Assembly (NCBI GenBank): GCA_030295235.1
Contig: AP026124.1
Coordinates: 868,001-932,000, forward strand
Length of the DNA: 64,000 nt
From: Fistulifera solaris
Lineage: Eukaryota; Bacillariophyta; Bacillariophyceae; Naviculales; Stauroneidaceae
Direction: 5' to 3'
The translations under genes and the position numbers were made by a program. Below are positions 3,899 through 49,492 of the stretch, piece after piece; position 1 is the stretch's first letter, and the number at the start of each line of letters is the position of its first letter. Below the pieces are notes generated by a model. It saw only the letters and a program-made list of their open reading frames with translations. It did no database searches and was not told where the DNA came from.

Positions 3899-3909
3899 GT
3901 GAACACGTC

Positions 3910-4925
3910 AAAATACAAAATGCCCAGCTTTTCCGTATACGTCAAAATACCAAAGGCCCAGATTTTCTGGACAAGTCAAATTCAACACCCCCAGATTTTT
4001 TGGAGAAGTCAAAATTCAACTCCCCCAGATTTTCTGGACAAGTCAAAATTCAACACCTCCAGATTTTCTGGACAGATCAAAATACCATTCCCCCAGATTT
4101 TCTCTCCCAAATTTTTTGGAGACGTCAAAGTACCACTCACCCAGATTTTCTGGAAACGTCACAATACCACTCCCCAGATTATCTGGATACGTCAAAGTAC
4201 CACATTCCCAGATTTTCTGGACAAGTCAAAATTCAACACCCCCAGATTTTCTGGAGAGATAAAAATACCGCACCCCATTTTCTGGATACATAAAAGTCCA
4301 ACAGCCCCAGATTTTCTGGATACGTCAAAATACCACTCACCAGACTATCTGGACACATCAAAATACCCAAACCCCCAGATTTTCTGGACAGGTGAAAATA
4401 CCACTCACCCAGATTTGCTAGACACGCCAAAAAATCAAACCCCCAGATTTTCTGGACAGATCAAATACCACTCCCCCAGATTTTCTGGATACATCATACG
4501 GAGTAATACAACTCTCCCAGATTTTCTGGCCACGTCAAAATACCACTCGCCCAGCTTTTCTGCATACTTCGAAATACCACTCGCCCAGATTTTCTGGACA
4601 CATCAAAAAACCAAACGCCCAGATTTTCTGGACAGATCACAATGCCACTCACCCAGATTTTCTGGACAGATCAAAATACCACTCACCCAGCTTTTCTGGA
4701 GACGTCATAATACCAAATGCCCAGATTTTTTGGACAGATCAAAATACCACTCCCTCAGATTTTCTGGATACATCAAAGTTCAACACGCCCAGATTTTCTG
4801 GACAGATCAAAATACCACTCCCCAGATTTTCTGGATACATCATAATACAACTCTCCCAGATTTTCTGGAAACTTCAAAATACCATTCGCCCAGCTTTTCT
4901 GGAGACGTACGAAGCATACAACGTA
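3910..4925. repeat. Minisatellite, about 29 units of about 34 bp
   Basis: A tandem array of units built around CCCAGATTTTCTGG followed by A-C-A-[GA]-[GA]-TCAAAATACCACTC-like sequence. By eye I count about 29 units, 31-42 bp long, most 33-35 bp. Sub-variants recur: TTTTTTGG instead of TTTTCTGG, CCCAGCTTTT, and a spacer ending in either TACCACTC or TTCAACAC. The core CCAGA-TTT-TCTGG is itself a perfect 5-bp inverted repeat, so each unit can form a small hairpin on either strand. One inverted copy (CCCCAGAAAATCTGGGGG) lies outside the array at 4985-5002. Long open frames of up to 346 codons across the array come from its near-multiple-of-3 period and are not taken as a gene. Confidence 0.93.
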
Positions 4926-32229: not shown

Positions 32230-34097
32230 ATGTTTGGTGGAGGAGGACGAAAGCGTCGCGATGAGCCGCAATCGCTTTCTCAAGCGATGCAACCCGAAAA
32301 TCCGCCGACCGGCGGTCGCAGCAATGTCACAGGATTCGATCCCGAAGGACTGGAACGCGCCGCGAAAGCCGCCCGCGATCTCGACAACAGTCGAAATGCC
32401 CAAGCGGCGATTGAATTGATCAAAACGCAAGAAACCACCAAACAGCATGAAGCCGCCGCGAAACGCGCCGAAATGGACGCTTATGCACAACAAATGCGCG
32501 CACAGAACATTGAAAAGGAAGCCGATGAAGCACGCAAGACGCTTGATGCACAGACGCAGCATGATAAACACCGTATGGAGTATCAAGATCAGCTGGAGCG
32601 GAAGAGACAGGTGGACATGCTTAATGCGCAGAAATACATGCAAGAGTAAGTCATTGTCGAGTTTGGTCAATTATTCCTCTGTTGGAGAAAATGGTCTCAC
32701 ATTTCGGATTAATTTGCTTCTTATTCAGAGAACAACTGAAGAAACAGGAAGAAATCGCGGCTCGGCAAGAAGAGATGCGTCGCAAGACTGCGGAATACGA
32801 GGCGGAGTTGCGCACAAAGACTGAAATTGCCAAAGCACGAGCCGAAACCGAAGGAAGAATCGCACAAGAGCGTCAAAATCACGATTTAATTTTAGAGAAA
32901 GTCCGATTGGAAGCGAAAGAACACCGAGACACCGTCCTACAGGCTATTACAGATGGTGGAAAAATTTTAGGAGAGGGCCTATCATCGTACCTTGAGGACA
33001 CGGAAAAGTTACGCAATACTGCCTTGACAATCACTGGAATTGCTGTTGGAGTTTATACTGCTCGTACCAGCATTGGGGTTGCCGGACGGTTTGTTGAAGC
33101 TCGTTTGGGTAAGCCTAGTTTGGTTCGTGAGACATCTCGACTATCTGCGGGGCAATTTTTGCGTCAGCCGTTGGCATCGACTCAGCGTCTCTTCGGCATG
33201 GGTCGGAAGGAGACTGATGCTTTGAAGGGAATTGTGCTGGAGAATAATTTGGATACGCAACTTCGAAAGATTGCAGTGTCAACGGCAAACACGAAAAGAA
33301 TCGTGCTCCGTTCCGCCATTTGCTACTCCACGGTACGTTACATATCAGTCGATCCTTGAAATAGTGAATGGTTTTCTCAGTTTTTTGTTGATCAGGTCCT
33401 CCGGGAACTGGAAAGACAATGTTTGCACGCAGCTTAGCTGAGTGTTCTGGTTTAGATTATGCCATCTTGACGGGAGGTGATATTGCTCCTTTGGGTCGTG
33501 ATGCTGTTACCGAGTTGCACAAATTGTTTGATTGGGCGAAAACGAGTCGCAAAGGCCTCCTTGTGTTTGTCGACGAGGCGGATGCATTTTGCAGTCTCGT
33601 GAGACAGCTCGCATATCAGAGGACCAAAGGAATGCTTTGAATGCTTTTTTGTTTCGTACAGGAACAGAGAGCGATCAATTCATGGTAGTTTATGCTAGTA
33701 ACCAGCCTTCTCAGTTTGATGAAGCCGTCATGGACCGAGTGGATGAAATGGTAGAATTTAGACTCCCCGGTGAAGATGAACGTCGCGCAATGATCGCACT
33801 GTATATTGAGAAGTATTTGTTGAACCCACCGGGACGCTTGACAAAGAAGGTGACCACCGAAAACATTGCCGACGCGGAAATCGAAAGAGTTGTCAAGGAA
33901 ACCGAGGGCTTTTCTGGACGAGCAATCTCGAAACTAGCTATTGCATGGCAAGCAGCTGCCTACGGAACAGAGGGCGCAGTACTGGATCGCGACACTTTCT
34001 TCACTACCGTTGAACACCACAAAAGAGTATGCTAACAAAGGAGGAGTGGTTGAAGCACGCCGCAGAACGAGCTCAATTGCTCGCGCAAGATCGTTAA
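32230..34097 (+). CDS. ATAD3-like mitochondrial AAA+ ATPase, several frame breaks
   Basis: Exons 32230-32645, 32729-33332 and 33396-34097. The N-terminal part after a Gly-rich start ([10 protein letters not shown]) is a long charged coiled coil ([16 protein letters not shown]). A hydrophobic segment ([13 protein letters not shown]) is the ATAD3 membrane anchor. Then the AAA domain: [10 protein letters not shown] (Walker A), [12 protein letters not shown] (Walker B), Y-A-S-N-Q-P and M-D-R-V-D-E-M-V (sensor/Arg finger region). Breaks near 33298-33301, near 33588 (T4 that should be T5) and near 34024; each is a one- or two-base correction. The likely end is [14 protein letters not shown] with stop at 34095-34097. 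ATAD3 organises mitochondrial inner membrane and nucleoids; about 573-574 residues is a normal length. Confidence 0.9.
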
Positions 34098-34116
34098 GAT
34101 AGTTGAATTATAGAAC

Positions 34117-35520
34117 TTACGCTGTCATTTTGTCTTCGATTATAACCCCTTGACCGTAGTCCGCGGCCTCTACTGTCAGTGGGCAAACGGTTGCGTGAGG
34201 CCATTGCGCCCAAACTTCACATATCCGTTGTCTCACTTCATCTTGATTGATATATAAACATGCCAAGGCGTCGTAACCACCTGCTCCTGGAACCAATGCA
34301 GCGACCACACCCGGTACGGCACTTGTGGCATCGGCAAGAGTAGTTTGTTCATCAGGCTCGACAGGAACTCCAGCACCCTCACCCATCTGTTTGAGATGCC
34401 GCCGAGTATCTAAAAGCAGTCGTCTCAGCTCTGCTGTTAATCTTCCTGTCTCCTTTTGAACAGCCGTCCATCCATTTAAACCATCGCTCCATTTCTCGGG
34501 GGAACAGCTCGCTAGTTGGGTGACTTCTTCCTTGGTAAGAGATGGAAGATCCATCAACTGCTGCCACACACGAACAATCTCCTGATTCGCTTCAGCAAGT
34601 TCATCCCAATGGCTTATGCGTCCTTTTTGTTGCTTTCGTTTCCATGCGAGAACCGATCTCGCCATACTAGGACTCTCGGAGCCACCGGAGACATCGGCCA
34701 TGATGACTTGTAAAAAGCCGCGCATGGTCAGTGGTTTGATCACGCCTCCAGGCCACGTAGACTCGACAACATCTTTTAGTAATGATTTTGCGTGTACGAT
34801 AGAGGAAGGTGTTTCGAGCGTCGACAGGAGTTCGTGCAAAATAGTTTCCGGAAATCGTTGATAGACATGAGACCCGTGACAAGCAGCGCTCACATCAAAG
34901 CCACTGCCGACCTTTCCTTGCGCATAGCAATGACTAATTTGTGCCAAGTTATAGAGAATTGCATCCGATTTTTGAAACTTGTGACAGAGTGCTCCAACCA
35001 TACTCGTCACGAGACACGCGCTACTTCCTAAACCGGACTTGCACACTTTTCTCGAAGTCTGGTCGACAGTGGCTGGTAAGAATTTCGGAAGTGATAAAGC
35101 GTTATTTAAAGTGATGGGAAGGTTTCGTTCTTTTAAATGAGTCGCCAGGGAGTAAAAGTCGTTGTCTGCTTGTATTTTTAAGTGTATGGAGTGGACAGAG
35201 GGGTCGTTCTCAAGGAGATAGAGCAATGACACGCGCAAGGTTTTCTCAATCAACTCATTCGACGAAGCGTTCATCGATTCGGCAAAAGTCCCTTCCTTTC
35301 GATTGTAACTATACTTCCAACTTTGACCGAATTGCGGGCTGTCGACTTGAATCTGAACCGTGTTGTCACTGTGTTCCGCACGTGATATCATGGCGGTAGT
35401 AAAAACTCGCTTGTCGACAGCAATCACGAGACCAAAGTTCATCGGTTCTAGTACCAGATAGCCTCCGGCTAGCAGTATTTTGCCTGGGGCTGACACAGTA
35501 ATTGATGAGGAAGTTGTCAT
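34117..35520 (-). CDS. Phosphomevalonate kinase
   Basis: GHMP kinase that phosphorylates 5-phosphomevalonate to the diphosphate in the cytosolic mevalonate route to sterols. One intact frame of 467 residues, normal length for the ERG8 type. It starts S-I-T-V-S-A-P-G-K-I-L-L-A-G-G-Y-L-V-L; the ATP loop is K-S-G-L-G-S-S-A-C-L-V-T-S; G-K-V-G-S-G-F-D-V-S-A-A precedes the centre; the C-terminal motif is V-P-G-A-G-G-Y-D-A-L. There is no targeting peptide. The gene is convergent with the ATAD3-like gene, whose end lies about 20 bp away. A GGTACC-type cluster (35601-35627) sits about 80 bp upstream of its start. Confidence 0.92.
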   Translation of the reverse strand: MTTSSSITVSAPGKILLAGGYLVLEPMNFGLVIAVDKRVFTTAMISRAEHSDNTVQIQVDSPQFGQSWKYSYNRKEGTFAESMNASSNELIEKTLRVSLLYLLENDPSVHSIHLKIQADNDFYSLATHLKERNLPITLNNALSLPKFLPATVDQTSRKVCKSGLGSSACLVTSMVGALCHKFQKSDAILYNLAQISHCYAQGKVGSGFDVSAACHGSHVYQRFPETILHELLSTLETPSSIVHAKSLLKDVVESTWPGGVIKPLTMRGFLQVIMADVSGGSESPSMARSVLAWKRKQQKGRISHWDELAEANQEIVRVWQQLMDLPSLTKEEVTQLASCSPEKWSDGLNGWTAVQKETGRLTAELRRLLLDTRRHLKQMGEGAGVPVEPDEQTTLADATSAVPGVVAALVPGAGGYDALACLYINQDEVRQRICEVWAQWPHATVCPLTVEAADYGQGVIIEDKMTA

Positions 35521-36925
35521 GTTTGTTGTTAACGTATCACCTCGACCAGTAATTGATTCAAGAGTTTACTTTTTGAAGTAATGAGACGAGTGTTTTTTTT
35601 ACCAGGTACAAGTACCTGGTACAAGTAATGCGATGTGGATCTATCTCATCGCCGACAAGCAGACGCAGACGCAGACACGCACACTGGCGATACATCGAAG
35701 CAGTGTGCGATTGAAATAACAAGACTGAAACAGTGCGTGAACCGTGGCGCAAACAAATACCGAGTAAAACGCAAGAAAACTTCCAAAAATAATAATCATC
35801 TCACCCATCATCATCGTCGAGGCACACAAAGTGCCTCCAATGGACGACTTGGCATTCGGCATCCATTCTTTCCCCCCCCCTTGTTCAAACTGAATTCCAA
35901 ACGCGTATTGCGCATGTGAAAGACGAGCAGGCCAGGCCCGCTGCTGCATTCATGAAAAATATTCAGACGCGTATACCGTGACATTCATTCGTGGGTCGTG
36001 GGATCCTAACATTTGGAGAAAACCGTTGCTCGACGCAGAAATACTTAGATAGCTCCCTCTAAATGATTTTTAAATTGAGTTTGTGAACACAAACTGATTT
36101 TGATTTTAGGATAGGAGAAGCATCGCCAAACATCTTTCTCTCTTGTTTTCGCTGCGTTCTTCTTCTTCTCACATCTCCTCTCAAAGGCGACTGAGAGAGG
36201 TTTGATCTCCTCCCCGTATTCAGTTGTTGCCAAAGCTGTGGCCTACGATCACAGCTTGGGACTGTATGGTTGAATACAAAGTGGGAGCGCATGAAGGGTT
36301 GTGGTGCGTATGTCCCGAGGAAGGAGGAGTCGTCTCGCGAAACGGCAACCTCGTGTCGTCTCTCGACGATTCGCTTGCCTACTTGCGAGGGCTTTCCTGC
36401 CTTACCGGAAAACACGCAGTTGGAGCATTGTGCTGGGAAAAGTTCTTCACCTGAGTTGTGGGATCCATGAGGCGTGCCGAAGAACTGTGTGCGCCGATGA
36501 TTGGTGAAGCTATGGTAACGGTTGAGCGGGGTTTGGGGTTCACCCGCTGAGCAGCTTATGAAAGCCACATTCGCCTTTCCGCTCCCAACCGGATACATGG
36601 GCGTTTGTGATTGCATGTTGACATCTGCTTAACGTCTTCGGAGCTCTTGCGGTGCTAATGAGTTATCCTAGAAATAGGTTAGCGGTTACGGGCAATAGCA
36701 GGGGTCCCCCATATGTCCCAGCACAATGAAAAATGTATACCACAACTCCTTTCATGCTAACACTAGTTCATTTCAAAACCAAATAAACTAAAAAAATATA
36801 TAAAATACAACGGATGGATGCGCGCGGTGGGTAAGGGTGACGGGAGAAACTCCTCCATCTGATGCTGTCAAATTTGTTTGCTCAAGCGGTTTCGTAGTCG
36901 TGTGGCTTGTTGTTTGCCCTAGTTT
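35521..36925. other. Long intergenic region
   Basis: 1.4 kb upstream of phosphomevalonate kinase. It includes a GGTACC-type cluster (35601-35627), a (GACGCA)n-like patch near 35660, a C9 run at about 35872-35880, and a 185-codon minus-strand frame (36059-36616) that has no signal peptide, domain or low-complexity clue; I leave that frame unannotated. Confidence 0.35.
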
Positions 36926-38950
36926 GGAAAACAGGGGCTCTCCAAGAAGTGACGCGACTCATTCAACAACTGGACGACGTATGGATAGGAGATTGCACGT
37001 CTGTTCGCATGGAAGTAAAGATGGATACATCTTTGAAGCCAAGAATAGTCAAATTGCCAAACTAGATCTGAAAGTCGCACAAACACCAATAATTGCCCAA
37101 TAAAGAAACCGGTGATATTCCAACACAAATAGCATATGATATGGTCCACTACTGAGCAAGACGTATCATTTGACGGTCACGATTGCCATCTGAGCATGTT
37201 GTCGAGTCAAGAGAAGGACAGGCGGCGGACGGTATTAGCCGACTTCCTGCGAAAACCATTCGAGCCATCGATCTCGGTACTATGTTTGGTTGCAAGCTAT
37301 CCGCGGAGACCGAGCTATACAGAACTGACGGCGTTCAAGATGTACCAGCTACAGCCACTGTTTAGGTACTTCATGTTCTATTATACTCATTCAGTTTCCC
37401 AGTAACTTTCTGAAATGCGTTTCCATTTCCTAAAAGTCCCAATTCAATCCCTCTCCAAAACGTCCAAATTCCATTTGTACTTTCGCGTTGAACGAGTTTC
37501 TGCAGCCAAAGCAACGACACAGAGTTCACAACGAAACCCGTCGCGTCGGCCTTTGCTTCCAGCGATGCTCTTCAAGCCAAAACGACGACACAAAAACCAA
37601 AGCCAAGCCCACCGCTTCTACTTTCGCTTCATATGGTGCTTCTTGCAGGCAAAGCAACAACAAAAAAGTTTACGTCGAAACCAGTTTCACTTCCAGTAAT
37701 GGTTCTGCGGCCAAAACGACGACACGAGTTCAAATCGAAACCCGCCGCTTCTGCCTTCGCTTCCGACGATGCTTCTGCAGCCGAGACGACGACACAAAAA
37801 TCCAATCGAAACCCGTCGTTGGATGCGAGACAATACCGCACATCCAGTTGCAATGGCTGCAGTTATAGTAGGGTTTCGTCGTGCCAACAGTCCGCTCAAC
37901 GCGTAAGCCACAAAGCAGCTGCTTTTACACAGCTGAGAGTCCGAAGAATTTGATCTCTTTCATCGCTGCTCTAAAACCTAGTAGAAGGGGGCCAGAAGTT
38001 GTTCATCACCTCCCTGTTCCGATGTCGTTATATCTATGACTATAACGTTGAAGATGCGAGAAAAAATTTCCCCACAACATCATCTCGCTGCCCATACTAA
38101 ATCTTCAAGGGTCCTTATTCCCTCGCTGGTTCGGCTAGATCACCAAAAGCGTCAACCTCCAATTTCGACTGCTCCTGTCTCAACAGAATTTTGTCGGCGT
38201 AGCCATGTTTAGCTAGTTTACATACTCGATCATGCGATCGTAAGGAGATTGTTAGCAGGGTGTGAAGTCCAATTTCATTTTCAATGCACCGAGAGCTTTT
38301 ATTGGATTCCGAGAAAAGGAAGGCGGTGAGAAAGAACTTTTAAAAGTCAAGATGGTGTCGTTCCCACCCTCTCGGCCGGCTATTTATCAAAAATCATCAG
38401 ACCGGCAACGAATTGCAACACTTAGCATGGTAGCTCTACCTCGCATTTACAGCTTTGACAGGCCAGAATATGACATTCGATTGAAAAAGTGACGATGGAT
38501 GTCTATTGTAATGTGCAATAATTGCACTATCGCGAGCCGTCGCGTGACGATTATCGATTTTGAAATGTCATAATACTCAGTAAAAAGATATCGAGCGCCT
38601 TTTGCGGGACCCGACATACCCAGAATGCCATTAGTAGAAGGAGTAACAAAGACCATGTAAGAAATGACACGATTACATAGCAAATCCTTCTAAAGGTCAC
38701 TCCATAACAACAAATGGGCCAAAATTTGATGAGCAAATACCTTGCATTTTGGCCTTTATTAGACAGTAGGTCTAATTTGTGGTTATTGCTTAGTGTAAGC
38801 TTAAGATGTAGGCTTGTCTCGTAGTGTTATCGAAACGGCATTGGGTGTCGCAGTGTGTTTACAAAATTTCGTCAGTAGGGTAGATGGACAGACTGGACCC
38901 TTTTCTAGTGTTCGTGAATAAAAAGCATCAATTCATTTCCCGGGACACGC
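36926..38950 (+). repeat. Left arm of a 2.03-kb inverted repeat
   Basis: About 2025 bp whose reverse complement is 41657-43690. Outer end begins G-G-A-A-A-A-C-A-G-G-G-G-C-T-C-T-C-C and inner end closes C-C-C-G-G-G-A-C-A-C-G-C, 234 bp before the rhomboid ATG. The arms agree closely, with scattered substitutions and a few small indels (for example about 7 extra bases in the right arm near 42046-42055). I recognise no transposase, reverse transcriptase or other coding domain in it. It includes an internal tandem array of about 70-bp units (separate entry). No clear target-site duplication was seen at the outer ends. Confidence 0.93.
37490..37840. repeat. Internal tandem array of about 70-bp units in the left arm
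   Basis: About five diverged copies of a unit containing GCAGCCAAAACGACGACAC and ending in CGAAACCCGCCGCTTCTGC-like sequence. Because the period is near 70 bp, the reading frame rotates and all frames look open over long stretches, giving false ORFs rich in K-T-T-T and R-R-F. The mirror copy lies at about 42775-43125 in the right arm. Confidence 0.75.
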
Positions 38951-39183
38951 TTAGCGTTTAGTAAAAAATGATCGTGCAATTGACTTGTGCCTGCCCTCTT
39001 CCCGACAACAATCTCTGACCTTTTGCCATTATTTTATCGTTACAATTCAAAACGTGTTTGGATTGAAATAAAGGTTCAGAATCTTGTTAAGGAGTGTTAC
39101 ACGTTCACAAAGGGCCCTTTCCTTTTTCGCACACCGCAAATCGTGCAGCAATATCAGTGTGTTTTGTGACAAGACAAAGAAGG

Positions 39184-40207
39184 ATGAAACGAATTTTCTT
39201 CACAAACGTATGCCTTTGCTATTTTTTACTCTGTCTTGAGCCATCACTCGCTCGAGATTCCATCTACACTGTCACTGATGCGAGCACACGGCAGCCGTGG
39301 CGGCGCTCTCCTTCGTATCGACGGTCGTTACGAAAGTCGCAGTATGTGAGCAATTACATGGACTATGAAACATTAAAAAAGGACAAACGTTGTCGGATTT
39401 ACTCGGTTAATTTCAAAACGCGCAATATAGGGAAGTTGTCTTGGACCAGTCGATTGGTGTGGGCAAATGTGCTGGTGTTTTTGCTACAAGCTTGCCGACC
39501 TTCCGTCACTTCGTGGGGCATCAACCTTTCCGATCGCATACGCAGCGGAAGAGAACTGTATCGTACCATCACTCCTGTTTTTCTGCACGGAAGTATATTT
39601 CATTTGGGTACAAACATGGTCTCCCCTGCAACGAACAGGAGGAGATGTGGAAAGATTGTTTGGCGGTGGTCGGTACTTGGCGACTTATTTGGCGGCTGGT
39701 ATTGCGGGCAACATCGTTTCCGCCTGGTCGTCTCCCAATCCGTCCTTGGGGGCGAGTGGAGCAGTATTCGGTGTGTTTGGGGCGTATTTCGTCTTTCTTA
39801 ATCGCAATGAATGGCTGTTGGGAGACTTTGGAGCATCCATGACGAATTCGATCACGCAAACCATTGCGGCAAATTTGTTACTCGGCGCTCTCAATCCGGT
39901 TATTGACAACTGGGCGCATTTGGGCGGCGCTCTGGGAGGCGCCGCGATGGCATATTGGTTCGGGCCGCGTTTGTACTTGACCGAGCTACCGGAATCGGGA
40001 AAGCAAATACTTGTCGATCGACCGGTAGTTCGATTGCCGCGTGCGCTAGAACAGCTTCCCGAACGGCTAGGGACATCAGTGAACAGTGTACTAGATAAAT
40101 TACCAGGCCTACCGCATCAATCCGCAAAACCTTGGCGAAGTGGTGATTTTAGAAGGCCAAAGGCCTACATGCCTACTCGATCTCTCAAACCCTTGCCGAT
40201 TGACTAG
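39184..40207 (+). CDS. Rhomboid-family protease with signal peptide, one frameshift
   Basis: About 340 residues after dropping one C from the C4 run at 39623-39626. The ATG at 39184 opens a signal peptide (M-K-R-I-F-F-T-N-V-C-L-C-Y-F-L-L-C-L). A basic segment (residues about 35-75) precedes the first membrane helix (R-L-V-W-A-N-V-L-V-F-L-L). Rhomboid marks: H-G-S-I-F-H-L-G-T-N-M, catalytic Ser in P-S-L-G-A-S-G-A-V-F-G-V, and His in N-W-A-H-L-G-G-A-L-G-G. The layout, a presequence plus rhomboid core, resembles plant plastid rhomboids, so location in plastid membranes is plausible. It lies inside the inverted repeat, convergent with coatomer epsilon, and its upstream region is the left repeat arm. 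Confidence 0.88.
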
Positions 40208-40629
40208 TAATTGTGGTCATGCAACGTGACTGTATCATTTCCCGACCGGCATCATTAATTTTCGACTGATTAATGAATTCTTTACATTAAAGAAGCTACT
40301 AAAAGGAACGAAGAAAAGCGTTTTAAAGGCTATCACGCGTTGGCGATCAACTAGACTATCTGAGCTTATTTATTACTTAACCAAGGACGCCCGTCTCGTT
40401 CGTTTGTGTTCAAAATTAATTGCATTCTGTGTTCGAGTAACGGATATTGCTGATCTTCACTTCTCAGCATTTAGAAACGGTCATCGGGGCATTTTTGTGA
40501 CTACGCAAGCCCAACTAAATAAACGTAGGAGTCATTCTATATCAAATACTCATTGTTCGACGCAGATTGCGGAGGCAAGCATTCAAATGAAAACTATTCC
40601 CTTATTATGACATGGTAAAACTCCATTGA
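40208..40629. other. Convergent intergenic region
   Basis: 420 bp between the 3' ends of the rhomboid and coatomer epsilon genes. AT-rich; no gene or repeat seen. It is the centre of the segment bounded by the inverted repeat. Confidence 0.3.
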
Positions 40630-41580
40630 TTAGTGTTTGTATTTGATCGATTCTCGATCAAATGCCGTAACGACTCGTTCCAGGCCGGCGCAAAAGTCAT
40701 GATTCGGATATGTTTGTTGCATCTGACCAATAAACTGATCGGCTGGCTTGTTCTGCTGCACCAAGCAACACACCAAATTGATCAAAGTGTCAGGAATGGG
40801 CAGTTCCGGATGATCACGCAGACATTCTTGTAATTTTCCTTCTGCCGCAGCAAAGTCTCCTTGATTCATGAAAGCGCACGCCATGAGATTGAGCAAAAGA
40901 GACGAAGGACCGTACTGTTCCGTGAGCATATTCAAGGAGTGAATCGCATCCTCCGCTCCCGATGCTCCCGTCGCTAGATTGACATAAACGGAACCCAACT
41001 GCGTCAAAATGGCATCTTCATCGGCTTGACGAAGCAACTGCAGTTGTTGCATGGCCAAATCGAGTCGATCCATTTTCAAAAAGATTTGCAAAGCCAACGC
41101 AATGTGTTCCATGGTCGCTCCCAAATGAACCAGACTCAAGGCTTCTTTAGTTTGTCCTGTCGACAAGAGAACTTGCGCGGCCGTCAGCTGTTCAGAAGGT
41201 CCCGCTGTTGCGGCAATGGTGCGAAGCTCATCGAGGGCGTTGGCGTCTTGACTGGCTTCAAAGTTGGCCCGGAGGATCAGTGCGTCGAGTGCTGCAAGAG
41301 TAACGAATACAGACGATTAACAAGGAATATGAGAAACAGAGGATAGAGAAATAATGATTGAAACGCAGCAGTTAAAAAATGACTTACCAGAAGTACCACC
41401 AGAAAGCTTGTCGTATTGACCCAACGCCAAATAAGCCCGATTGAGAATTTCTTCGCGTTCCGCCTTCAACGCCGGGCTCATGGGTCGACGGGCGATAGAT
41501 TTAGCCTCTTCAATGGCTAAATTGTAATGACCCAGCCAATATTGGGCACGTAGGGTGTAAAGATCATCCGGTTCGGTCAT
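40630..41580 (-). CDS. Coatomer subunit epsilon
   Basis: COPI vesicle-coat subunit acting at Golgi and ER membranes. Exons 41388-41580 and 40630-41291 with a 96-bp GT-AG intron; intact frame, 284 residues, near the usual 300. Starts M-T-E-P-D-D-L-Y-T-L-R-A-Q-Y-W-L-G-H-Y and continues A-Y-L-A-L-G-Q-Y, then TPR-like helices such as A-L-A-L-Q-I-F-L-K-M-D-R-L-D and the closing D-H-P-E-L-P-I-P-D-T-L-I-N-L-V. The family pattern is clear over the whole length. The ATG is 77 bp from the inner end of the right inverted-repeat arm, so the promoter lies in that arm. Confidence 0.92.
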
Positions 41581-41656
41581 GGTGGTGTTTTTTGTGTTGT
41601 TGTGCGTTGCAGTCGACAGCGACGAACGTGTACGTAGATTTCCTACTGAACACCAC

Positions 41657-43690
41657 GCGTGTCCCGGGAAATGAATTGACGCTTTTTATTCACGAACACT
41701 AGGAAAGGGTCCAGTCTGTCCATCTACCCTACTGACGGAAATTTTCTAAACACACTGCGACACCCAATGCCGTTTCGATAACACTACGAGACAAGCCTAC
41801 ATTTTAAGCTTACACTAAGAAATATGTACTCCAGTACAAATTACAAAAATGCAAGGTACATTTGCTCATCAAAATATCGCAGGCCCACAAATTTTGGGCC
41901 CATTTGTTGTTATGGAGTGACCTTTAGAAGGATTTGCTATGGATTCGTGTCATTTCTTACATGGTCTTTGTTACTCCTTCTACTAATGGCATTCTGGGTA
42001 TGTCGGGTCCCGCAAAAGGCGCTCGATATCTTTTTACTGAGTATTACTACGTATGACATTTCAAAATCGATAATCGTCACGCGACGGCTCGCGATAGTGC
42101 AATTATTGCACATTACAATAGACATCCATCGTCACTTTTTCAATCGAATGTCATATTCTGGCCTATCGAAACTGTAAATGCGAGGTAGAGCTACCATGCT
42201 AAGTGTTGCAATTTGTTGCCGGTCTGATAATTTTTGATAAATAGCCGGCCGAGAGGGTGGGAACGACACCATCTTGACTTTTAAAAGTTTTTTCTCACTT
42301 TTCTCGGAATCCAATAAAAGCTCTCGGTGCATTGAAAATGAAATTGGACTTCACACCCTGCTAACAATCTCCTTACGATCGCATGATCGAGTATGTAAAC
42401 TAGCTAAACATGGCTACGCCGACAAAATTCTGTTGAGACAGGAGCAGTCGAAATTGGAGGTTGACGCTTTTGGTGATCTAGCCGAACCGGCGACGGAATA
42501 AGGACTCTCGAAGATTTAGTATGGGCAGCGAGATGATGTTGTGGGGAAATTTTTTCTCGCATCTTCAACGTTATAGTCATAGATATAACGACATCGGAAC
42601 AGGGAGGTGATGAACAACTTCTGGCCCCCTTCTACTAGGTTTTAGAGCAGCGATGAAAGAGATCAAATTCTTCGGACTCTCAGCTGTGTAAAAGCAGCTG
42701 CTTTGTGGCTTACGCGTTGAGCGGACTGTTGGCACGACGAAACCCTACTATAACTGCAGCCATTGCAACTGGATGTGCGGTATTGTCTCGCATCCAACGA
42801 CGGGTTTCGATTGGATTTTTGTGTCGTCGTCTCGGCTGCAGAAGCATCGTCGGATGCGAAGGCAGAAGCGGCGGGTTTCGATTTGAACTCGTGTCGTTGT
42901 TTTGGCCGCAGACGCATTACTGGAAGTGAAACTGGTTTCGACGTAAACTCTTTTGTTGTTGCTTTGCCTGCAAGAAGCACCATATGAAGCGAAAGTAGAA
43001 GTGGTGGGCTTGGCTTTGGCTTTTGTGTCGTCGTTTTGGCTTCAAGAGCATCGTTGGAAGCAAAGGCCGACGCGACGGGTTTCGTTGTGAACTCTGTGTC
43101 GTTGCTTTGGCTGCAGAAACTCGTTCAACGCGAAAGTACAAATGGAATTTGGACTTTTTGGAGAGGGATTGAATTGGGACTTTTAGGAAATGGAAACGCA
43201 TTTCAGAAAGTTACTGGGAAACTGAATGAATATAGTTGAACATGAAGTACCTAAACAGTGGCTGTAGCTGGTACATCTTGAACGCCGTCAGTTCTGTATA
43301 GCTCGGTCTCCGCGGATAGCTTGCAACCAAACATAGTACCGAGATCGATAGCTCGAATGGTTTTTGCAGGAAGTCGGCTAATACCGTCCGCCGCCTGTCC
43401 TTCTCTTGACTCGACAACATGCTAAGATGGCAATCGTGACCGTCAAATGATACGTCTTGCTCAGTAGTGGACCATATCATATGCTATTTGTGTTGGAATA
43501 TCACCGGTTTCTTTATTGGGCAATTATTGGTGTTTGTGCGACTTTCAGATCTAGTTTGGCAATTTGACTATTCTTGGCTTCAAAGATGTATCCATCTTTA
43601 CTTCCATGCGAACAGACGTGCAATCTCCTATCCATACGTCGTCCAGTTGTTGAATGAGTCGCGTCACTTCTTGGAGAGCCCCTGTTTTCC
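41657..43690 (-). repeat. Right arm of the 2.03-kb inverted repeat
   Basis: About 2034 bp, the reverse complement of 36926-38950, with the outer end at G-G-A-G-A-G-C-C-C-C-T-G-T-T-T-T-C-C. The sequence between the two arms, 38951-41656 (2706 bp), holds exactly two intact-looking convergent genes. Because both arms are long and nearly identical, recombination between them would invert the centre. Confidence 0.93.
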
Positions 43691-44142
43691 CCTAAGCTGT
43701 TTACGCTTCAGGTTCTATTCCAATTGGAAGCTATCCTGGCTGAGTGCGCGTCTACCTGTGCGAGAATTGTCAGACGATGCGAGAGAAGAAGCAGAAAAGA
43801 CAAGTTCCATGCGAAAAGTAGAGTCCATTGAAACCGTACCGATGTCCTTCTCCATCGACAGGAACAACTGCTATTTAAGTTGTCCAGATCCAGGAGACCG
43901 GAATGAGGGACATTACCGTCACGTCTGGGTGACAAAACGCGCGCCCCGAGTTGACATTTGATTTCGATGCCAGGGCTTTTCATCCGCTCTTTTTTGTCGG
44001 TGGTAGGACGGTAAAATATGCTTTTGTTTGTTTTATACTTCATTGAAGAAACTGAAGGCTACTTAAGAAGAAATTGAAGTGACCTCCTAGAGCACAACTC
44101 GGATGGAAAGGACATGACGATGATGCGAAGTAAGACGGACTT
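43691..44142. other. Intergenic beyond the right repeat arm
   Basis: 450 bp between the repeat end and the alcohol dehydrogenase relic. Short open frames on both strands have no features I can name. Confidence 0.3.
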
Positions 44143-44750
44143 TTGTCTGTACCTGTTCATGCACTTGGTGGAATAACCGTCATAACAAAGACGTTCGGTG
44201 AAACAGTTATCGGAGGGAGATCGGGTCAGTGGGCCGATAATTCCTTGTTGTGCGAATCGCCGGTATTGTTTTCGAAATTGCACAACAGAGTGCTTCAATC
44301 AGCAGCAACCTGGCAACAAGTGTTCGGGCAGGCATTTTCGCGGAATACATGGCCATCCCATTGTAGTGTCAAACACATTTCCGATACTGTTTGGTTCGTT
44401 CAAGTGGCGTCGCAATACTGTCGATTCAAGGCAGCCTACCGCGCTGTGAAGCAGCAAGGAAGACTACCAACAAGGTGGATCCATAGCGATATTTGGGGCC
44501 GGCGGAGTGGGTCTTTCTTGTGTCATGGTGGCGGCATCGATAAGGAGAAAACAACTTTTGCAATTGATCTGTCGAACGACGCACTCCCCTTGGCAAAGAA
44601 GCTCGGTGTTAGGGTCGAAACCCACAGGCGTGGGCTCTGGACTTGTACGGCCCATCTTCAGCATGTCTTTTTAACGATACGAAGCCGGATATTCTCGTCT
44701 CAGTAAGACTGGTCGCCGGCCTTCTACGTGATGACAGATCGCTTTTTATC
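44143..44750 (+). pseudogene. Zinc-type alcohol dehydrogenase relic
   Basis: The three forward frames together spell pieces of a zinc-dependent medium-chain dehydrogenase in the right order. First, H-A-L-G-G-I-T-V-I-T-K (44155 on). Then, in another frame, L-S-E-G-D-R-V-S-G-P-I-I-P-C-C and R-Y-C-F-R-N-C-T-T-E-C-F, the structural zinc lobe. Then I-F-G-A-G-G-V-G-L-S-C-V-M-V-A-A-S-I, the Rossmann G-x-G-x-x-G motif. Then, shifted again, T-F-A-I-D-L-S-N-D-A-L-P-L-A-K-K-L-G-V, the acidic NAD(P) strand. Several frame changes and missing stretches (no complete catalytic centre, lost C-terminal half) mark it as decayed, more than the single-base breaks elsewhere. It may have been damaged when the nearby repeat arm arrived, but that is conjecture. 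Confidence 0.8.
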
Positions 44751-45395
44751 CACTCTAGCTTCGGGTCTGCCTCGCGAAACACTAGACAAACCGAAAGCGA
44801 CCCATTGGTAACATCGCTTAGCAAAAGCTTTCGGCGAATCCGTGTCGGCTTCATCTGCCACAGTAAATATATCGTTGCTCAATTTCGTGAACTATCAAGA
44901 GAAAAACTTTGTGAATTGCTGTTTGGTTCGACGACATATCTTTCCAATCGGGCGAATATCTGCAGACACTTAAGCGTCGCATTCACTGTCTTTTCGCGCG
45001 CTAAGGACGAAGCTTATGGAACAATCTCGTCTTGGCATACGCTCGGCGGTTGAAAATGCAACAAAGTTTGAGTCATCCATAAGCTTCTCGCCACTGAGGG
45101 AAGCATCATGGATAAGATGACACACAAGTCATACCGACACGCAACACCCCTTCCTTAGAGGCGCTAGACACCCCTTATTGAGGCATACTTTGTAGCAGAC
45201 GAATTACAATAAACAGCATCAACTTCAATACAGCGTACAACTTAGACCCATCGCAATTGAACCTTCAGTTTTAACCCACAATGATCACGACTCATCATGA
45301 AGTCGTCCATATGAATATAGTCGTTTTATCATCAGGGTCCTCCTTCGGAATATGTGACAGAATGAGGGACCACGACATAGCCGGCATGCGGAACG
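44751..45395. other. Intergenic after the dehydrogenase relic
   Basis: About 640 bp that may include further decayed dehydrogenase sequence (an open frame to 45053 with no clear match). The rest lies 3' of the GH81 gene. Nothing else was recognised. Confidence 0.3.
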
Positions 45396-48300
45396 TTAGC
45401 GGGTGCAACAGTCCAGGTTTAACCCATTCGGCGAAGGACAGCAGTCACCAGTTAAGTGCAGGTCTGCGCATCGAGGATGAGACTCGCACGTCACACCAGA
45501 TTGCGATCCATTACTCGAATGCGTTTCATGAACCTTTGAGGCACCAGATGATTCATCTACTTGAGGGAAAGGTTCTGTTTGATTGCTGAAATATACATTT
45601 TTAGTGCCGCTTTTGTCGCCACTGATGGCCACAACGTCGAAATTGGATCTTGTTGCAATCCAATAAAGTACCTGACTCTTGCTCAACGCCGAATCAAGTT
45701 GCGAGCTGATCAAGTCTTGAGCCTCGGTCCAAGCAGTCGAAGCATCGAAAATTGCATGGTTAGAAATCACATATCCCTTCCAAGCCATCTCTGCTCCACT
45801 CGCTTGCGCTTCCAACACATTCCTATACTCATCTCGGACATAGTCTATCGAAAAGAGTTCTCCTGTAACCGCTGTCACTGGAAGAAAGTTGATCATATGC
45901 ACGTAGAGGTCCTTTGTCCCAAACCATGTAGAACAAATAGCGTCCATCATACCCAAATTTCCCACCATGTAGTTCCGGGAAAACTCCTCACTATAAACTT
46001 TTAACGCGGGCGAGCCATTCCTTTTTCCCTGAGACTTTGATGGCGACATCTGCCAATATGTTTTAGCTCCACGTATCTCGGTCGCAAGCAACAAGCGGGT
46101 AAAATCAGTTTCTGGTGATACGTCGGACTCAGGGTTTGCTGCTGCCCCGTGCCTAACAACGGACCACAAGTATGCGCCGTAGTAGCCATTTACAGCTTCA
46201 CTCGAGCTTTCTTGGGACTTTCCGTTGCCAAACGGAAACAATCCCGACGCAAACGAATGGCCGTCAAACCACGACTTGTGTCTTGCAGCAGGAAAAAGAC
46301 TCCATCAACAACCTTTGAATCTAAGTTGGTATTATGGGCAATATCATAGAAGATGGTGTCGACCTCGTTTCCGAATCTCTCAACAAATGTGCTGTTGAGG
46401 CTCCCCAATACCGCGCAAGCATACAAAAGATAACCATAATGGAAATGATGGTCATTGTATCTACGCAATGAAATGGAATTGAGATACAAGTCAGTTTGTC
46501 ATATGGTATGCTGATCGAACTTCTTGTGGACTTACCTTCCGTTTCCAAAATCTGCGTGAGAATCCAGCAAACCGTTGGAAGTCACCAAGCCTCCGAGGTT
46601 GGCATCAAAAACTAAACCATCCGTAACTCGATTTGTGAGGACTCGTTCCAGTATATTCGAGAGAAAATGGGCCGCTTGCTGCAGTATACCCGCCAAGTTT
46701 TCCTCCTGTATGCCATCAACAGCATTGTCGTCATCCTTTTCTTTTAGTAACACATTTGCAATATGAGCAAGCTGAGCAAGTCTAGCACTCTGTTTCCCGA
46801 ACCCATAAATATCTTCAGACACTGTTGGCAAAGATAATTTGATGTCTTCATAAAGACTCCGTACGATTTGCTGTCGAACAAACGGATCGTGCAAAGCTTC
46901 CGTCGTGCTTGATCCACTGTCCCCATCGAAACCTAAACTGGGAAGTACTTCATCGTACATCCACGTAGAGCCAACGACGGGTGACATGGGTCCTTTGATC
47001 GTTTTGTATGAGAGTTCAAATTCGTCATTCGCTAGTTTTACCAACTTCGGCAGACTATCTGCGTGATGAGGTAGTGCCAACATTAGCAACGGAAGGGAAC
47101 TCGTTGAACTACTAGACGCGGAGAAAGTCTCTGTCGAATATTTAAAGCGAATGGTTCCAAGACGCTTCGTTTTCAGAGACGAAGGAGCACTAGTTATCCC
47201 TGAAACGACTTTTGTTATCTTGTCAATACTCCCGATACTCTTTGTGTTCAAGTTGTGAGAAACGTCAGTTGTTGAAGCAGGTCGGAAGGTCCAACTGACT
47301 TGTCCTCCAGTTGGGTAAACTCCTGCGTGATAGACAAGCCTCTGAAGAGCCTTAGAAGACATTACATTCAAGTCCGACAAACTGGGCTGTGACTCGGTGA
47401 CATTCTGTCTTTCAGCGGGTGGTACATAAGCGAACCGTAAAACCCCGCTAAAGCTATGTTGGGCTTCAATAGATACCTTTTGAACTCTATCGAATGTCAA
47501 AGACAGTGATTCTGATGCGAATGCAAACCAATACTTGTTGTCTGTCGTCTGTACGACAAATTGGGTGCCCGTAATGATGTCTATTTTTTCATCCTCGCTC
47601 CTCTCGGAACTACACACGCTTGATAGTAAGTTCCGTCTTCCATTAAAGTCTATGTCTCCGTCTTCGTCGCGCGGACAAAACACATCAGCGATTCCGGGAA
47701 ACGCTCGGATAGCTGGCATTGAGTTTTTGTATTTGATTGTAATGTAGGGACTGCCCTGTACCAAATACGTTTCCCAAAATCCGCCCGACATCGTGCCATA
47801 TTTAAGAGTCACACTCAGTGCATCGAACTGTTCGATGTGCCGGCTCATCGTACCTTCTCGGCAAGCAAATGCCAAATCTGGAATAGCATAGTCATGAATT
47901 GATTTTGCGTCCTCTTGTCGATGACCAGCGGGATAAGACACCTGGAAGACATCATCAGACCATGTGTACGCATATGGATACACTGCCGTCGGATACGAAA
48001 GACCGTGATCGGCGGTTACAGGCAAAACAAGATTTACCCAGAATGCTCCGGTTGGAAATGGAAATGTAAATTCGCGGAAGGGGTCCCTTCCTTTGTAATG
48101 AAATCTCGGATGAAAAAGATTCTTTTGTAAAAAAGCAGAAACAGGGTCGCCCGCGTCAGCTCGATTCACGGAAGGGAAAGGCATCATGTACGCAGCCGGT
48201 GAGCTGTGAGATACCAGGAAAGACCCCGACTTGCTGAAGTGCAACACGGTAACAGAAACGGCAAATAGCAACATGGATACTCCGCCGACCCACAGAGATA

Positions 48301-48643
48301 TGTACGCCGTCGCATTTCGTTTCAATGGCGCAAAGGATATCATTCCGAATAAACAACGTTGACGATGACGATCTCCATTTGCATTTTCGTTCACCAATGG
48401 CTGAATCTCGTCACCTTTCAATAGTAATACGTGCGGTATATCCATGGAGTCGTTGACGGCAAGATCTTCGTCTTGTTCATTGTCGGTTGTTACAATTGAT
48501 TCTCCGACTAAAGAGTCTTGGTCGGCGCCTGTAGGGACTGTGCCGTTGCCGTTTGTTCTATTATCGACATAATCAGTACTGCCGTAAAAATAGAAATACT
48601 GAGGCTTTTCTTTACGCTTGACGCCGAGTTGTTCCTGTGCCAT
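45396..48643 (-). CDS. GH81 endo-1,3-beta-glucanase, membrane-anchored, one frameshift
   Basis: Exons 46536-48643 and 45396-46460, intron 75 bp; about 1057 residues after adding one T in the run at plus 46293-46297. The N-terminal 110 residues are acidic and cytosolic-looking, followed by a single membrane helix (Y-I-S-L-W-V-G-G-V-S-M-L-L-F-A-V-S-V), so it is a type II membrane protein. The GH81 domain opens P-F-P-T-G-A-F-W-V-N-L-V-L and has D-F-G-N-G-R-Y-N-D-H-H-F-H-Y-G-Y across the splice, then W-F-D-G-H-S-F-A-S-G and G-N-G-K-S-Q-E-S-S-S-E-A-V-N, which holds the catalytic Glu. The tail is Cys-rich (H-P-R-C-A-D-L, D-C-C-P, D-C-C-T-R). Diatoms store chrysolaminarin, a 1,3-beta-glucan, so vacuolar mobilisation is a sensible role; secreted or wall-remodelling functions are alternatives. 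Confidence 0.92.
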
Positions 48644-49492
48644 GGCTCAATTGAATGAAGAAATGCTCGTGCGAACAGTCTAAGAAAAATGACAAAATAT
48701 GCCTTTTGCCAATCTTATTTTAAACCAGCCTTGCCACGCCTCCATACGCTTGCGATTTCGCCTCTCAATAGTTGCTGCAATACCAAGTAATTGTTGTCTT
48801 TTGCCTTTGCCCTGATTTGCTTTTTCAGGTAACCTTACACCGTCATGAAAACAAACAACGGTGAGCGGAACAAAAAAATTAAGCGTGTCTGAAACTTTCG
48901 TGCTGATGCCTATTTTCGAGTATCTCGTAATGTGTAGCGAGTGACGAATGAGTTTTTTCGCCACTCGTCGCTCGGCATTACCGAAGAAAAAGAGAGCACA
49001 AGTTTGGGTCAGTATTCGGGACTTATCTATTTTAGAATTACAAATAATGGAGGCGCTTCCGTGCTGATGTTCATTGGTATCGTTCTAGGAGTAATTTAGA
49101 TCTACGCCACTTGCTTTAGTCTCGCTCGGAAGAATATTGGTTCATGACTGAAATGCAGTCGTGGCGCTGTTCCACACACAGAATCTATAGTAAATACTGA
49201 ACTCAACGATGTCGACATGAAAGAATCAATGCGTGCATTAGAAAGGAAGCTAGGTGTAGTCGGATCGTGTTTAAAACTTATGAAACTAACAAGCTGGCAC
49301 AAAGAGCGGAGGTTAGGTGGGAGTCTGTCTCGGAAAAACTAGACTCATGACTGAAATTCAATCGTGGTAAAGTTGATACAACACAATAGGCATATTATTG
49401 CAAAAGTGAAAGACAATGAACCCCAAGGCATTCGACGCAAAGACAATAGTATCAATGCGTAAAACACAAACATTAATATATCTTTCGCCGTT
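48644..49492. other. Intergenic with paired palindromes
   Basis: 850 bp between two minus-strand genes. Copies of the dispersed palindrome occur at 49141-49166 and 49344-49367, about 200 bp apart, with partly similar sequence after each (for example ATCTATAGTAAA and CAATAGTATCAATG-type pieces). A 94-codon frame (48680-48964) has no recognisable feature. Confidence 0.4.

Follow-up and report, generated by a model that had tools for sequence, protein, structure and literature searches.

A probable recent inverted duplication or conversion between promoter-like modules upstream of two convergent genes in the diatom Fistulifera solaris

Here, we report the analysis of an inverted repeat in the genome of the diatom Fistulifera solaris (51.7 Mb in 61 contigs). 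The window, that is, the whole stretch of DNA that was analysed, comprises 64,000 nucleotides of contig C2 (C2:868001-932000; GC content, 46.1%), and positions refer to it unless a contig is named. Two arms (36926-38950 and 41657-43690) enclose a centre of 2706 bp, in which a rhomboid-family gene and a coatomer epsilon gene face each other, as the original prediction for this DNA had it. The features discussed below are as follows (basis in parentheses).

34117..35520, minus strand: GHMP-kinase gene, left neighbour (Pfam)
35644..36925, plus strand: fragment C, abutting arm 1 (family comparison)
36150..36750, plus strand: hyperconserved non-coding core of C (28-copy alignment)
36926..38950, plus strand: arm 1, rhomboid side, with the outer family part and, innermost, module M (alignment)
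38760..38955, plus strand: M upstream of the rhomboid gene, limits approximate, with the invariant core GGACAGACTGGACCC at 38886-38900
39184..40207, plus strand: rhomboid-family gene, frame broken near 39623 (sequence, Pfam, comparison with contig C1)
40630..41580, minus strand: coatomer epsilon gene, two open stretches (sequence, Pfam)
41652..41850, minus strand: M upstream of the coatomer epsilon gene, limits approximate, with the core at 41707-41721
41657..43690, minus strand: arm 2, coatomer side, an inverted duplicate of arm 1 (alignment)
43691..44097, minus strand: segment D1, joined to arm 2 without interruption, an arrangement shared with other copies (family comparison)
44098..45270, minus strand: segment U, outer limit approximate (family comparison)
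C1:955109-955867/958334-959092 (L013 3110-3868/6335-7093): a separate inverted repeat on contig C1, 760 columns, 98.7% identity

Both enclosed genes were matched by Pfam (Rhomboid, 9e-24, open frame 39467-40207; Coatomer_E, 2e-40, open frame 40630-41166), and an intron presumably joins the two open stretches of coatomer epsilon. Arm 1 and the rhomboid ATG (39184) are separated by 234 bp, arm 2 and the coatomer ATG (41580, minus strand) by 77 bp, the same distances as originally given. Read from 39184, the rhomboid frame is broken near 39623 by a single C that its intact 343-amino-acid homoeolog on C1 lacks, so the window gene may not be intact in this assembly; this C may be genuine or may be a mistake of the assembly within a run of C. 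The neighbouring GHMP-kinase gene (34117..35520) we take to be phosphomevalonate-kinase-like. Elsewhere in the window, positions 3900-4908 form a tandem array with a unit of roughly 65 to 70 bp, judged by self-match spacing.

The arms had been described as reverse complements with few differences, and alignment bore this out, with 97.6% identity (2005 bases aligned, 48 of them substituted; 49 bases gapped in 6 events), or 95.2% over 2074 columns by BLAST across the arm with gaps counted. From the outside inward, identity between the arms was 98.6% in the outer arm (36926-38318; 20 substitutions in 1392 aligned bases), 97.7% at 38319-38724, 76.6% in a short scrambled patch (38725-38800), and 97.3% in the innermost segment (38801-38950); the longest identical runs were 345, 266, and 190 bp. 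The 48 differing sites mark the arms as two distinct copies rather than a single sequence placed twice and, because the flanks differ as well, the repeat is unlikely to be an assembly artefact, as judged from the assembled sequence. No target-site duplication was visible by eye between 36925/36926 and 43690/43691, in line with the earlier reading.

Module M, the inner end of the arm, is about 200 bp long, and 15 copies of it were aligned. A 15-mer pattern from it, GGACAGACTGGRCCC (one position A or G), had 65 exact matches in the genome (reversed pattern, 0), and a 27-mer from M allowing up to 3 mismatches had 103 (control, 0). The exact matches were distributed over odd contigs (53) and even contigs (12), with none on C18-C61; on C1-C6, 2 of 53 matches lay less than 450 kb from a contig end, versus about 19 expected. 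Fifteen distinct M sites were readable in the loci examined, and at 13 of them M preceded, in the same orientation, an unambiguous open frame (sense, at least 147 amino acids, start no more than 900 bp downstream, and at least 1.8 times the longest antisense frame), although these 13 are partly non-independent, as the rhomboid, coatomer, Nop-domain, and NAD(P)-binding genes each occur twice as homoeologues. The remaining two sites were ambiguous (L024; 124 versus 102 amino acids) or cut by the end of the locus (one site of L015). Pfam families of the genes preceded by M, one member each, were Rhomboid, Coatomer_E, GHMP kinase (run on the window protein; M itself precedes the C1 homoeolog), Nop, PALP, Arv1, HEAT repeats, PseudoU_synth_2, and NAD(P)-binding; the Pfam scan covered 10 proteins, four from the window. 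The claim that two unrelated genes have a common upstream sequence thus holds and extends further, since the inner arm end precedes many genes. M is promoter-like by position, and we infer a promoter role for it from this sequence context. In a tree of the 15 copies, the M copies of arms 1 and 2 grouped together at 100/100; 9 of 12 inner branches were unresolved, and only 2 were well supported. The core 15-mer had no match in the literature text searched, and no claim is made that M or C is unpublished elsewhere.

The rhomboid-coatomer pair has one homoeologous match (C1:959210-961774; 85-90% identity), in the same order and orientation as in the window, and a genome search that scored a limited number of candidates found the centre only at these two places. 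Window segments 32624-35543, 39118-42266, and 45388-49165 are collinear, in that order, with C1:952000-954919, 959320-962424, and 962757-966536. With C5 and C6 likewise paired for the single gene tested (92%), this collinearity makes the genome look allodiploid, which is how F. solaris is described in the available portions of PMC5935921 and PMC13276009. The C1 coatomer gene is adjoined by an arm of about 700 bp with M in it (70% identity to arm 1), the C1 rhomboid gene has a U-like piece to its left (957998-958309; 78-80%), and a short inverted M pair surrounds the two C1 genes (959018-959149/961757-961884; 136 columns, 77%). Neither the arms' outer 1.4 kb nor fragment C nor D1 was found within C1:952000-970999. 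The separate inverted repeat on C1 encloses about 2.5 kb, including the U-like family piece, and its M ends point outward, toward the GHMP-kinase and rhomboid genes. M thus lies upstream of the GHMP-kinase gene in the C1 homoeolog; it was not found upstream of the window GHMP-kinase gene. Farther along C1 (966837-967797), there are direct repeats at a spacing of about 445 bp (97.5% identity over 516 columns).

The outer arm and the sequence on either side of the repeat are made up of fragments from a dispersed family of non-coding DNA. A full-length arm was found only at the window locus (genome search, limited number of candidates scored), and family copies elsewhere are 65 to 83% identical to the arms for pieces longer than 50 bp, versus 98.6% between the outer arms. 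The commonest order in the family is U, about 290 bp, core C, about 25 bp, D1, and outer arm. In the window, C is without the approximately 290 bp at its start (250 to 360 bp in copies showing that part) and the approximately 25 bp at its end, and the pieces are split, with C abutting arm 1 on the left without D1, and arm 2, D1, and U on the right without C. Window U joins D1 directly; C sits between U and D1 in L034, L036, L040, and L049, which are the four compared copies showing both. A U, D1, or arm piece was found inside the 1.5-kb flanks at 20 of 29 non-window loci and none at the other 9. D1 and then arm pieces follow C at eight loci (L036, L039, L040, L050, L053, L056, L058, and L060). 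Exceptions to the order are L045, where arm pieces precede D1, L044, where an arm piece follows C with no match to D1, and L020, where a piece matching arm positions 1294-1547 precedes U; stretches of C5 and C6 (L022, L021) have D1 and outer-arm pieces without C. At L017 (C21:268552-269376), a tandem array with a unit of about 70 bp by match spacing is similar to arm positions 550-893.

Within fragment C, a 27-base probe from the core, with 2 mismatches allowed, had 28 genome matches, all of them exact (control, 0); 27 lay on even contigs C2-C18, one on C31, and none on odd contigs C1-C17. A longer DNA search with C gave 40 full or partial matches, including a weak one on an odd contig (C1; 77% over 258 bases). 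Mean pairwise identity among the 28 copies was 98.6% over 36400-36700, and the edges were far more variable (67% at 35700-35850; 69% at 36800-36925); one copy, L060, had no match to the 5' part of C. Avoidance of contig ends like that of M was absent for core C (15 sites on C2, C4, and C6). A protein-coding role for the core or arms was considered and rejected: the longest open stretches differ widely among copies, and the alignment contains indels whose lengths are not divisible by three. Open-frame tblastn among copies gave no frame-specific signal, several frames matching at once, as is expected from DNA similarity. Rfam gave no match in the window at gathering score; two weak matches within 35500-45400 were far below that score, and neither was inside the core. 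No tRNA was found in the arms or core. None of 210 predicted pairs in core C had two-sided changes (27 copies, L060 excluded), in a core that hardly varies, and the fold z score of the window copy was −2.55 on the plus strand and −4.20 on the minus strand (20 shuffles each). An exact 37-mer of the core was absent from the viral contigs searched, a collection that may omit records near this genome.

Arm divergence by substitutions is 1.4% (outer) to 2.4% (all), versus 10-15% for homoeologous sequence in and around genes and 30% between arm 1 and its C1 counterpart, so that, given comparable rates, the last homogenisation of the arms would be far more recent than the split between the subgenomes. 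Beyond the inner ends of the arms, the rhomboid side resembles the C1 rhomboid sequence and the coatomer side the C1 coatomer sequence; gene-specific sequence therefore resumes past the arms, and the identical tract ends inside M. The locus is thus probably the product of a recent inverted duplication or conversion of the upstream region between inverted M modules, which lends support to segmental duplication, one of the options originally offered. In the ancestor, short and diverged M modules in inverted orientation would already have stood upstream of the two convergent genes. Repair synthesis begun in one M, with the other M as template, would then have generated an inverted copy of about 2 kb of upstream sequence (M and part of the dispersed family), stopping on the gene side within the 3' end of M and on the far side at the ragged family junction 36925/36926. 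We infer that the repair synthesis or template switching was anchored in M. There is a slight preference for copying from the coatomer side to the rhomboid side, because the D1-U continuation is retained next to arm 2 and the longer arm on C1 is coatomer-side. At the 31 ungapped sites within 38301-38960 where the arms differ, the C1 coatomer arm agrees with arm 1 at 12, with arm 2 at 11, and with neither at 8, a balance that favours neither direction. Counting against this explanation, the rhomboid side on C1 is occupied by that contig's own inverted repeat, and the outer structure demands extra steps (D1 is missing on the left and C on the right).

Four adjacent inverted M pairs were readable, a small sample that overlaps in genes, and two have long, near-identical arms (window rhomboid-coatomer and C1 kinase-rhomboid). 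The other two are without long arms, namely, C1 rhomboid-coatomer (the 77% pair above) and C1 808k-811k, for which no inverted match of at least 70 bp was found at an E value of 1e-6. That two young, M-ended inverted repeats have arisen in homoeologous neighbourhoods, on different pairs that share the rhomboid gene, suggests a role for M pairs in promoting ectopic copying.

Three other explanations were weighed. The first is palindrome maintenance, in which ongoing gene conversion preserves the likeness between the arms of an ancient inverted repeat, as reported for Caenorhabditis. It would fit the patchy identity, with a 76.6% patch amid segments of 97-98%, and the inverted M pair around the same C1 genes, which conversion could have lengthened; the long arms do not look old here, however, since their outer 1.4 kb was not found in C1:952000-970999, and we consider this reading unlikely. 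Quite unlikely, in our judgement, is a transposable element with long terminal inverted repeats (a fold-back element, as had also been proposed) or two opposite copies of an element around the gene pair. The outer arm pieces and flanks do belong to a dispersed family, and the C1 repeat encloses a U-like piece of it, but the centre consists of host genes found elsewhere only at the homoeolog, no target-site duplication was seen, and the other family copies are far less similar to the arms (65-83%) than the outer arms are to each other. A fold-back element was set aside also on the structure of the arms, which are composites of pieces that occur apart elsewhere.

The last alternative, likewise raised in the original prediction, is an invertible cassette, in which recombination between the arms would flip 38951-41656 and swap the upstream regions of both genes. 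Identical runs of 345 and 266 bp would in principle be long enough for homologous recombination. No positive evidence for flipping was found, however, the C1 homoeolog has the same orientation, and a flip would alter little for either gene because the arms are nearly identical; we regard a cassette as very improbable. The locus looks like a case of promoter exchange rather than a switchable cassette.

If the preferred reading, duplication or conversion between inverted M modules, is right, M is a likely promoter and also an anchor for ectopic copying, neighbouring genes can exchange promoters, and the two homoeologous loci are two separate young examples. More surprising than the inverted repeat itself are the promoter-like M, at about 100 sites, and a hyperconserved 28-copy core almost confined to even contigs; M (mostly on odd contigs) and core C (almost exclusively on even ones) could mark parental origin in a hybrid diatom. 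A broader proposal, which we offer as speculative and rather doubtful, is that M spreads by ectopic inverted copying and is homogenised among neighbours, and that core C is a functional multi-copy non-coding RNA that came from one parent alone. Were it true, unrelated housekeeping genes would gain nearly identical promoters, and promoter swapping would be a recurrent path to co-regulation, unequal between the parental subgenomes.

A literature query combining promoter duplication and conversion found nothing, and the following comparisons draw on partial texts of the works cited. Caenorhabditis has long, near-perfect inverted repeats with evidence of active maintenance (PMC1803023, available sections). 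The arms described here are, like those, long, nuclear, and nearly identical, with whole intergenic sequences included, and are more alike than the surrounding divergence predicts; in Caenorhabditis, however, the structure is conserved between species (same sections), whereas here the inverted repeat at the homoeologous locus is not the same one, a pattern more suggestive of recurrence than of inheritance. In yeast, template switching between non-identical inverted repeats homogenises the arms or inverts the spacer, according to the accessible part of PMC8604942. As there, pre-existing imperfect inverted repeats (here M) would serve as anchors and one arm would be rewritten from the other; the yeast events in that part of the report involve short inverted repeats and multinucleotide changes, whereas the tract here spans about 2 kb and takes in a block of the dispersed family. 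Finally, for F. solaris itself, the excerpted text of PMC5935921 describes promoter motifs that are subgenome biased and uneven between homoeologues; the motif given there, TABASTA, is a 7-mer found in 2113 and 1588 promoters, whereas M is a module of about 200 bp at about 100 sites.
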